A DNA stretch of 44,700 bases from SAR324 cluster bacterium SAR324-CTD7B (lineage in GTDB: Bacteria; SAR324; NAC60-12): the NCBI GenBank assembly GCA_002082305.1, contig LSNO01000060.1, positions 1 through 44,700 on the forward strand, read 5' to 3'. The notes under the pieces are model-generated. The model had not been told where the DNA came from. It searched no databases and saw only the letters and a list, made by a program, of their open reading frames with translations. Every line of letters begins with the position of its first letter. Position 1 is the stretch's first letter. Of the stretch, positions 41,663 through 44,700 are shown piece by piece. Made by a program: the position numbers and the translations under genes.

Positions 41663-42937
41663 ATGGATAAACGGCTTAAAAACACAAAAACGGCTGGAAG
41701 CATGATCTTGCTGATGCTGTTTCTCTTTCTGCTGAGCCCTCAGTCAGCGTGGTCTGCCGAAGATGAAGCTGAAATTCTAATTTTCAGCCTCTCGCCTGAA
41801 AAAGTTGAAGAACAGCAGGGAGTTCTCCAAATTCAGATCAGCACCTTCAGTCCAATTGAGAAAATAATTGTTGATGGAAAACCTCATAAATTCCCCAAGG
41901 CTGCAAGCCTGGTTTGGCTGAAGATTCCTTATAAACTAAAGCCAGGAGTAAATATTTTTAAAGTTTACGTTAAGACCAAGTTCGGCGAAGCAAGAAAGAT
42001 AATCCGGATAATCTATGAAACTCCTGAACTTCTTAAAAAAGCAAAACTTGGTGACTCCTTTCAGTTGATCACTATCCTCAGCGGCGTTACCAAAGATAAC
42101 ATTGAAAAGGTCGAGGACAACAGCAGTAAGTCCAAAGCGTTTTCTTCAAGCATTCTGTTCGTACCTTCATACCGCTTTGACGTCTTTGAAGATTCCAGCA
42201 TTTTTTTACGGGGAGTCCTGATGGGCGACCAGCAGCACAACGGTAAATTTGAATCCAAAAAGGTTTTGTTTAAACAGGCAAGCATTGAGTGGGAGGAACG
42301 TGAAAGCTGGGCAGGCGTCTTAACGCTGTCATTGGGTACAAATGAAGCGGGAACAAGGGAAATTCCGGTGACCTCAACTCCCAGAGACAGCCTTTCCAAA
42401 AAATACAAACGGGCGACCCGTGACAACGTCTACACCCTCAAGGCCAAGCAGGAACTTGAAAAAGGTACAACATGGAACTGGCAGATCGACCGTAAGAAAA
42501 AGTCCGTAGAGGGTTCCAACGACGACAGCGGTTTTTCAACCACACTTGCGGCAGGTTATGTAACTCCTATATTTGGCGTAAAGACAACTTTTGGAGGAAC
42601 GCTTGAAGACACAAACCTCAATGGAGCATACAAGGACACCGAAGCAATCAAAGCCAAACTAAAAGTAGATTATCCAATTCCGCCGGTTTCTCTTGGTGTC
42701 CAGTATGATTTTTCTGAAACCGAAAATAAGGTTGCTGATCCATCTCTGGAGTGTGTTACTATCTGCAATGGAAAGACAAAGAACCGGAATCAAATTTATA
42801 CGCTTAGCCTCAACTATCCTGCAGCGGCGTGGTGTATCTTTGGATTGACCCAGAAACATGAGAGTCAGAGTTCAAACATTGTTGGAAAAACCTACAAAGT
42901 GAATTCGACACAATTGCAGGTAATACTCATTTATTGA
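41663..42937 (+). CDS. Exported protein with Ig-like domain and beta-barrel-like C-terminus (unknown function)
   Basis: The 424-residue protein is not recognised as a named family. It has a signal peptide (LMLFLFLLSPQSAWS, cleavage near residue 32, before AEDEAE). The next part looks like a cadherin/Ig-like domain: EKIIVDGKPHKFPKAASLVW, then LKPGVNIFKVYVKTKFGEAR and YETPE. From about residue 150 it alternates charged/polar and hydrophobic residues in beta-strand fashion (SYRFDVFEDSSIFLRGVLMG and similar), and ends QLQVILIY, an aromatic C-terminus typical of outer membrane barrels. So it is probably an outer membrane protein. The downstream FecR-domain gene, with its own promoter, may act with it; that is inference. 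Confidence 0.7.
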   Translation: MDKRLKNTKTAGSMILLMLFLFLLSPQSAWSAEDEAEILIFSLSPEKVEEQQGVLQIQISTFSPIEKIIVDGKPHKFPKAASLVWLKIPYKLKPGVNIFKVYVKTKFGEARKIIRIIYETPELLKKAKLGDSFQLITILSGVTKDNIEKVEDNSSKSKAFSSSILFVPSYRFDVFEDSSIFLRGVLMGDQQHNGKFESKKVLFKQASIEWEERESWAGVLTLSLGTNEAGTREIPVTSTPRDSLSKKYKRATRDNVYTLKAKQELEKGTTWNWQIDRKKKSVEGSNDDSGFSTTLAAGYVTPIFGVKTTFGGTLEDTNLNGAYKDTEAIKAKLKVDYPIPPVSLGVQYDFSETENKVADPSLECVTICNGKTKNRNQIYTLSLNYPAAAWCIFGLTQKHESQSSNIVGKTYKVNSTQLQVILIY

Positions 42938-42953
42938 AAATTAAACTATCTGC

Positions 42954-42982
42954 TTGACACAGTAAGATAAATTCAAAATAAT
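42954..42982 (+). promoter_or_regulatory. Strong sigma70-type promoter for the FecR-domain gene
   Basis: TTGACA (42954-42959) is perfect and AATAAT (42977-42982) matches the minus-10 at 5 of 6 positions, with exactly 17 bp between. Transcription would start near 42989, a leader of about 22 nt before the ATG at 43011. Confidence 0.65.
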
Positions 42983-43010: not shown

Positions 43011-44700
43011 ATGAAATTTCGAGTCTTACTCCTGCTGGCCCTGTTCCTGGCTGCCATTCCTGCAATTCCCCTGCAGGCACAGCAGGGACTGCTGTTGCTG
43101 GAAAAAGGTTCGGTCAAGGTGATCGGTCCGGAACGCACTCGTCTGCTGCGCAAGCCCGGTGCTAAAATGGTCCTCCATGCCAAAGACCGTGTACAGACCG
43201 GCAAAGATACATCCGTTAAAATCAAGATCCGGGGCAAACCTGAAATAATTGAACTCTCCTCCCGTTCCTTTTTCCGTATGGGAAAGATTACCCGGCAAAC
43301 CAGCAGTATCTCCCTGCTGACCGGAAAAGCCCGTTTTAAGATTCAAGGCAAACTCAAGCGCAAGAGCAAAAGGAAACGCTTTCAGATTCGTACCGTTACC
43401 GCACTGGTAGGTGTGAGGGGTACCGACTTTGTGGTTGGTGCGTCCAATACTCAGACCAGTCTTCTCACTATTTCCGGTACAGTTTCTGTGGCTCCGGTGA
43501 GTATGCCGGATATTGAGATCGAAGTTCCTGCCAACCAGGCTTCTACAATTCAGCAAAACTCAACGCCAACTGCACCTGTTGAAGTTTCCCCAAAAATGCG
43601 TGAGCAGATCCTCAAGGCTGATTCGCCCAAAGCTTTTAATAATGTCAAATTCGGAGAGGCGGTAAATCCGGAAGAAGTACGCAAAGAAAATGAAAAAAAG
43701 AAAAAGGAGGAAGAGGAAGAACAAAAGAAAGAAGAAGAAAAGCGAAAGGAAGAAAAACCTAAGAAGGACGGGGAAGGTAAAGATGGAGAAGGAAAACCCC
43801 GGCAGGAAAAAGAAGGAGAACCAAAACCGGGCGAAGATGATCCGGAAGGTGAAGGAAAACCAGGAGATGAGGAAGGTCCGCCAGGCGAAAAAGAAGAAGG
43901 AGAAGAAGGACCTGGAAGAAAAGGTCCACGAGGACCTGGAATGCCTGGAGAGGGAGAGGAAGATGAAGAAGGCATGATGATGGGACCAGGAGGTGAAGGA
44001 AAACCAGGAGATGAAGAGGGTCCGGGAGGCCCTGGAATGCCTGGAGAAGGGCAGAAAAATGAAGGCGGCATGATGATGGGACCAGGAGGTGAAGAAGGCG
44101 GCATGATGATGGGACCAGGAGGTGAAGAAGGCGGCATGATGATGGGACCGGAGGGTGAGCAAGGGGGGGCCCCTGATGTATCTTTTCGTACAGGCACTGA
44201 TGAAGGCATGCCAGGCGGCAGTTTTAAGCCCGGAGACGAGGCGGGAGCTCCAGGTGGTATTTTTGTACCATCAGGTGGTGACTTCGGAGGAGACCCAGGA
44301 GACTTCGGAGGTGGTGACTTTGGAGGAGACCCAGGAGACTTCGGAGGTGGTGACTTCGGTATAAAAGATGACTTTGGAGGGGATTTTGGAGGTGATGATG
44401 ACTTTGGAGGCAGCTTTGGGGGCGATGACTTTAGAGGCAGCTTTGGAGGTGATGACTTCACAGGAGAAACTTATGCCGGAGATGATTTTGGTGACACCTT
44501 TGGTGGAGATGACTTCGGGGGAGCTTTTGGAGGTGATGACTTTAGGGGGGACGATTTCGGAGGAACAGCTGGTTTTGGGGGAAAAGATGACTTCGGACCA
44601 GGTGATCCAGAAGGCCCAGGCAAACCAGGTGATCCAGAAGGCCCAGGCAAACCAGGTGATCCAGAAGGCCCAGGCAAACCAGGTGATCCAGAAGGCCCAG
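43011..44700 (+). CDS. Secreted FecR-domain protein with long repetitive Gly/Asp/Phe and collagen-like tail (3' end outside window)
   Basis: The frame from ATG 43011 is open to the window end (563 codons) and its stop lies beyond. It starts with a signal peptide (MKFRVLLLLALFLAAIPAIP). Residues about 27-160 form a FecR-type domain: LLLEKGSVKVIGPERTRLL, then KDRVQTGKDTSVKIKIRG and VTALVGVRGTDFVVG, the last being the family's RGT-F-V motif. FecR domains outside siderophore regulation occur as periplasmic or surface domains. After a charged coiled coil (ENEKKKKEEEEEQKKEEEKR) come acidic GE/KPGDEEGP collagen-like segments, a triple GGMMMGPGGEE repeat, a DFGGDDFGG-type region and perfect GDPEGPGKP repeats. 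No catalytic domain is seen. Function unknown; structural, adhesive or matrix role is a guess. Confidence 0.85.
   Translation, partial: MKFRVLLLLALFLAAIPAIPLQAQQGLLLLEKGSVKVIGPERTRLLRKPGAKMVLHAKDRVQTGKDTSVKIKIRGKPEIIELSSRSFFRMGKITRQTSSISLLTGKARFKIQGKLKRKSKRKRFQIRTVTALVGVRGTDFVVGASNTQTSLLTISGTVSVAPVSMPDIEIEVPANQASTIQQNSTPTAPVEVSPKMREQILKADSPKAFNNVKFGEAVNPEEVRKENEKKKKEEEEEQKKEEEKRKEEKPKKDGEGKDGEGKPRQEKEGEPKPGEDDPEGEGKPGDEEGPPGEKEEGEEGPGRKGPRGPGMPGEGEEDEEGMMMGPGGEGKPGDEEGPGGPGMPGEGQKNEGGMMMGPGGEEGGMMMGPGGEEGGMMMGPEGEQGGAPDVSFRTGTDEGMPGGSFKPGDEAGAPGGIFVPSGGDFGGDPGDFGGGDFGGDPGDFGGGDFGIKDDFGGDFGGDDDFGGSFGGDDFRGSFGGDDFTGETYAGDDFGDTFGGDDFGGAFGGDDFRGDDFGGTAGFGGKDDFGPGDPEGPGKPGDPEGPGKPGDPEGPGKPGDPEGP
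44064..44162 (+). repeat. 33-bp tandem repeat (GGMMMGPGGEE) in the FecR-domain gene
   Basis: Three consecutive 33-bp units begin at 44064, 44097 and 44130; the third is diverged (GPEGEQ). They encode GGMMMGPGGEE, an unusual run of three methionines per repeat. Confidence 0.85.
44274..44345 (+). repeat. 36-bp tandem repeat (GGDFGGDPGDFG) in the FecR-domain gene
   Basis: Two nearly identical 36-bp units (44274-44309, 44310-44345) encode GGDFGGDPGDFG. Degenerate DFGG/GGDD units continue to about 44595. Confidence 0.85.
44601..44700 (+). repeat. Perfect 27-bp tandem repeat (GDPEGPGKP) at the window end
   Basis: Identical units occupy 44601-44627, 44628-44654 and 44655-44681, and a fourth begins at 44682 and is cut by the window. 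The units encode GDPEGPGKP, a collagen-like Gly-X-Y pattern. The identity of all copies points to recent expansion. Confidence 0.95.

Follow-up and report, generated by a model that had tools for sequence, protein, structure and literature searches.

Organization of the locus

The window, namely the whole stretch of DNA analysed here, is an entire contig of 44,700 bp (G000:C145). At its end, an open frame on the forward strand starts with the ATG at 43011 and continues through 563 codons with no stop to the final base, 44700; a gene for a putative outer-membrane protein (OMP) lies directly upstream on the same strand. The frame is genuine and runs off the contig end inside an exact 27-bp repeat. 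The features of both genes and of the spacer between them are as follows.

41663..42937, + strand: OMP with a signal peptide, an Ig-like domain (approximately aa 38-118), a predicted beta-barrel and an aromatic end (...QLQVILIY); conserved across SAR324
42954..42982, + strand: promoter-like site between the OMP and FecR genes (TTGACA-17-AATAAT, 11/12); box pattern recurring in several orthologous spacers
43011..43079, + strand: signal peptide of the signal-peptidase-I type (aa 1-23, ...LQA/QQG), read from the sequence; kept in orthologues
43080..43679, + strand: conserved FecR region (aa 24-223); 81-93% identity to orthologues
43185-43484, + strand: Pfam FecR core (PF04773, aa 59-158), E = 3.5e-10
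43680..43769, + strand: Lys/Glu charged coil, read from the sequence; helix at the matching place in a low-confidence model
43770..44160, + strand: acidic Gly/Pro/Glu region with triple-Met repeats (TRF); 33-bp unit at 44061-44154
44273..44596, + strand: Asp/Phe/Gly repeat region (DDFGG and variants), its units diverged in DNA (TRF)
44597..44700, + strand: perfect 27-bp array encoding GDPEGPGKP, 3.9 copies with 100% match (TRF), the contig end lying inside

The match to PF04773 scored 40.6 bits against a gathering score of 24, and with the threshold relaxed to E ≤ 10, FecR was still the one Pfam family that matched. An earlier note on this DNA had read a single frame joining signal peptide, FecR domain, charged coil and repeats, and this layout was borne out by the Pfam match and the TRF arrays. 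The same note had assigned the gene its own promoter, which is probably correct: the TTGACA-17-AATAAT site scored 11/12, and a TTGACA/T box followed 17-18 nt later by an ATAAT-like box was present in several of the orthologous spacers.

The tail of the window protein was shown to consist of 31% Gly and 2% Val, Ile and Leu together, with a net charge of -59 and neither Cys nor Trp. TRF resolved arrays of a 33-bp unit (GGMMMGPGGEE, 2.9 copies), a 36-bp unit (2.4 copies), a 27-bp DFGG-type unit (6.5 copies) and the perfect 27-bp unit, and exact 18-mer repeats numbered 134, codon shuffles averaging 0.03. The four DDFGG units of the window carried four different DNA spellings, and 12 spellings were found among the 14 units of the orthologue L035; since the spellings differ, these units are old and have been kept as protein, and the GDPEGPGKP units, being identical in DNA, are recent. 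Met-rich GGMMMGP units occurred in the window, L028, L029 and L024, and FGPE-type units replaced the Met positions in three sister species. Tail length was likewise variable among the orthologues and the repeat arrays differed by species; the acidic Gly-rich middle is probably a fast-changing, flexible spacer.

Complete orthologues and their C-terminal end

Five complete orthologues of 604-746 aa were identified, with 81-92% identity to the window protein over the FecR region (93% for a frameshifted copy in G004). All five possess the signal peptide, the FecR domain, the Lys/Glu coil, the acidic Gly-rich repeat tail and a conserved C-terminus, made up in each case of an acidic helix together with a final strand, for instance VIIEINYD (an example ends in ...DDILGDTGTILDDLDDTLDNIETIRRVIIEIKYD). 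Conservation is therefore concentrated in the FecR region and in the ~30 residues at the C-terminal end, with a varying middle between them, and the window contig stops before the helix/strand region. The named matches came from SAR324 and 'Deltaproteobacteria' MAGs and from isolates labelled AG-, which are taken to be single-cell genomes. Because five relatives carry the complete gene with a conserved end, the gene is neither open-ended nor an artefact. In the G004 orthologue (L024:7217-9414), a stop at aa 242 was followed by a tail, including RVIIEINYD, spread over three frames, a pattern that suggests many indel errors in this 5-contig assembly as opposed to a short protein.

The earlier note thus stood in its view that the protein has a FecR domain, is exported, carries a low-complexity tail of an unusual kind and belongs to an envelope or surface setting. 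Of the two outcomes it had named as fatal, a stop soon after the window and repeats generated by misassembly, neither was encountered, the relatives running on to 600-750 aa and carrying repeats of the same classes. The C-terminal anchor it had looked for took the form, in the relatives, of the short acidic helix and terminal strand. What the note had missed is that the gene belongs to a conserved OMP-FecR-lipoprotein cassette. Structure prediction was uninformative: AlphaFold2 modelling of a full FecR orthologue gave a mean pLDDT of 40.1 from a shallow alignment of 6 rows. For the OMP, the mean pLDDT was 35.5 (7 rows), the N-terminal beta-sandwich alone being at usable confidence, and two FecR profiles found no sequence match in the PDB.

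Relation to known FecR-domain proteins

The best NCBIfam match of the window protein was Lsa33 (NF047849, E = 1.7e-11 over aa 12-168). Leptospira Lsa33 (LIC11834) is an exported protein with its FecR domain at aa 60-162, for which laminin and plasminogen binding have been reported (PMC3444417). The window protein is likewise exported, and the position of its FecR domain is almost the same; unlike the window protein, Lsa33 is a lipoprotein, and a long repeat tail is unreported for Lsa33. At 43.8 bits, where the curated cut-off is 420, the window protein falls outside the Lsa33 family. Another Leptospira FecR-domain envelope protein, LipL45/Qlp42 (PMC5553009), matched weakly (NF033165, E = 1e-4; 21.5 bits versus a cut-off of 350) and, in contrast to the window protein, is a lipoprotein processed at its N-terminus. 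The closest named relatives are these two Leptospira proteins, both far below the curated cut-offs. The window protein is interesting but not unprecedented, namely a repeat-tailed version of a stand-alone FecR envelope protein.

With canonical FecR of the E. coli FecIRA type, the window protein has PF04773 in common. Unlike canonical FecR, however, it carries a signal peptide, lacks both the DUF4880 anti-sigma domain and the C-terminal DUF4974, and was seen with no FecA-type receptor partner, its cassette neighbours being the Ig-like OMP and a lipoprotein as judged by blastp to the window, by eye and by Pfam scans of some of the flanking genes.

A conserved OMP-FecR-lipoprotein cassette

It is well supported that the gene of the repeat protein is one of two or three adjoining cell-envelope genes that are conserved together in SAR324. 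A search of 58 genomes, 52 of them of the same class or nearer, gave 50 matches to the OMP in 31 genomes, and in 40 of the 50 a FecR homologue lay directly downstream on the same strand, several of the others being at contig edges. Conversely, 15 of the strongest 55 FecR homologues had no adjoining OMP match, some of these at contig ends. The cassettes sit in differing genomic contexts, with two copies in some genomes. Two overlapping searches with the OMP profile, covering 54 genomes from outside the phylum, returned nothing convincing and a single marginal match (E = 9.9e-4); the module is apparently phylum-typical. In addition, OMP and FecR distances were correlated (r = 0.91, 0/2000 permutations, n = 24), in a mirror-tree statistic that ignores shared ancestry.

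A lipoprotein gene follows the FecR gene in the orthologues of G002, G003, G004, G007, G009 and G014, and the FecR-lipoprotein gaps were often 5-24 nt. These lipoproteins share a conserved N-terminus (CGDLEPEMQDTRTV...IPLNT) and vary in their C-terminal modules (LamG, GLUG, Big and others). In several cassettes the adjoining lipoprotein was absent, moved or undetected, and for the window copy none was found in its own genome. Short repeated segments (TTCCCCGGAACGGAGT, CGCCAATTCCATCACG) were observed downstream of one cassette, at L027:4078-4981.

The genome of the window contains a second OMP-FecR-lipoprotein cassette (L042:4470-9530; G000:C21), located directly behind MotA/ExbB-like and MotB-plug/OmpA genes, and in another genus the cassette of L049 is likewise directly downstream of such a pair. 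No stator genes were seen near the window cassette. Behind the second lipoprotein, at L042:1-2521, lie two repetitive genes, one of which contains near-identical units of the PDNASADNSTFFTITN type. Paralogues of 245-350 aa with the same type of OMP partner carry short, plain charged linkers. Meanwhile, two FecR homologues from genus g2 (L078 and L079) have PEPT or AEKKT repeat tails, adjoin an OMP gene and run off contig ends.

The terminal strand and a rearranged partner

For those FecR homologues whose C-terminus is complete, an alternating hydrophobic terminal strand was found in 29 of 31 OMP-paired proteins as opposed to 4 of 21 unpaired ones (Fisher p = 3.7e-8, shared ancestry being ignored), by a 14-residue rule chosen after the ends had been viewed and with the paired set taking in L068, L070 and L095, whose C-terminus ends in F as those of the OMPs do. 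When the first 22 proteins were compared with shuffles, 19 showed such a strand, whereas the shuffles averaged 4.7 and never exceeded 10.

In one family (L067, L068 and L070), the partner encoded upstream retains Ig-like domains but no barrel, and the FecR proteins are longer by ~190 residues, with GGRF, GRRF or GLNF at the very end. We infer that these extra residues may form a barrel. Pfam barrel families gave no match to them, and the barrel call, both for these C-termini and for the OMP itself, rests on the aromatic ends and on a Porin_4 match below cut-off; a beta-alternation score did not separate most of the predicted barrels from shuffles and failed on the OMP. If the segment is indeed a barrel, FecR and Ig-like domains stay paired while the barrel changes chain, which argues for a physical partnership of the two at the outer membrane.

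Alternative readings and proposed role

The composition of the tail, rich in Gly and Asp, might suggest a collagen-like fibre or an RTX-type calcium-binding protein, and the orthologue L036 does contain a run of 11 GXY triplets. Collagen-like bacterial proteins share a Gly/Pro-rich region with the window protein, which itself lacks an in-register GXY array: its longest run was 3, below the shuffle mean of 4.7, so that the collagen-like GxY repeat listed in the earlier note and the collagen-type surface filament built on it were not upheld. The calcium-binding protein of the RTX type fared no better, since no nonapeptides (GGxGxDxUx) occur in the window protein, and Pfam Collagen and RTX were both unmatched. 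Run length, motif and Pfam thus rule out either identity for the window protein, and a reading of this kind is very unlikely. A classical FecR regulator of cell-surface signalling, acting as an anti-sigma factor, would agree with the Pfam match above cut-off, but a signal peptide occupies the place where the cytoplasmic anti-sigma domain would be, no second Pfam domain is present, and no TonB-dependent receptor was seen in the cassette; this role, contradicted by the domain content, is extremely unlikely. That the repeats are an assembly artefact is barely conceivable. The contig does end inside a perfect 27-bp array whose continuation, searched for with the 3' end, was absent from all other contigs of the same assembly; nevertheless, independently assembled genomes, including the AG- isolates, show the same repeat classes followed by the conserved end.

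Two further readings are doubtful rather than untenable. The repeat protein might be, as the earlier note had supposed, a stand-alone secreted surface or matrix protein; its tail would then be the functional part, a self-associating extracellular polymer, with the OMP as its mere exporter. Phe and Met are spaced in the acidic Gly background of the tail, the DDFGG units are conserved at the protein level, and the arrays are species-specific, all of which speaks for this view; however, the conserved parts are the two ends, and since the OMP-partnered paralogues carry only short charged linkers, the repeats appear dispensable for the conserved function, making a matrix protein rather improbable. 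The module might instead be a periplasmic sensor or strut that connects the outer membrane with either peptidoglycan or a proton-driven stator, the tail spanning the periplasm. The MotA/ExbB-like and MotB-plug/OmpA genes ahead of two of the cassettes and a FecR-OmpA fusion in G046 point in this direction, but the window cassette has no stator genes nearby and the LamG and GLUG modules of the lipoproteins look extracellular; we consider a strut unlikely.

The analysis shows the module itself and, within the FecR protein, the conserved ends and the variable middle. Our leading reading, which we hold tentatively and at a little less than an even chance, is that of an outer-membrane display module, in which the FecR-tail protein is the middle component, docking on the OMP with its tail as a flexible spacer. 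The FecR protein would cross the inner membrane by Sec, its FecR domain would sit against the Ig-like domain of the OMP at the outer membrane, and its terminal beta-strand may dock on the OMP by strand pairing. With both ends held in this manner, the acidic, aliphatic-poor Gly repeats dotted with Phe and Met would loop out between two fixed points as a long, flexible stretch of variable length, and the lipoprotein encoded just downstream would be the displayed cargo. The most likely role of such a module would be to hold or space adhesive ectodomains at the cell surface. In RcsF-OMP complexes, lipoproteins are threaded or tethered through OMP barrels; the likeness to the proposed module, a disordered linker tied to a beta-barrel, is an analogy drawn from the proposed mode of action.

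SAR324 is, to our knowledge, uncultured, and it is widespread in the ocean globally (PMC9031357). An envelope module with interchangeable, adhesin-like cargo is a concrete candidate for how SAR324 cells meet particles, and it would show the FecR domain in use outside iron signalling, next to a partner that can be tested. The module also accounts for the way in which genes of this kind run to contig ends and, seen in one genome at a time, resemble orphan repeat proteins. Literature searches found no paper treating SAR324 and FecR together and no earlier description of the cassette and its rearrangements, and it is the latter two that lift the interest above that of the repeat-tailed FecR protein itself. 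A bolder version of the display module, speculative and improbable as it stands, would be a SAR324-specific apparatus in which the FecR protein is held at both ends on the Ig-barrel OMP and uses its disordered, fast-evolving tail to tether interchangeable lipoproteins adjustably at the surface; one paralogous form of this apparatus may be driven by a MotAB-like stator. As a separate observation, a 903-aa protein at L073:2364-5075 (G046:C63) was shown to combine PilZ, FecR and OmpA domains, together with a sub-threshold response-regulator match.
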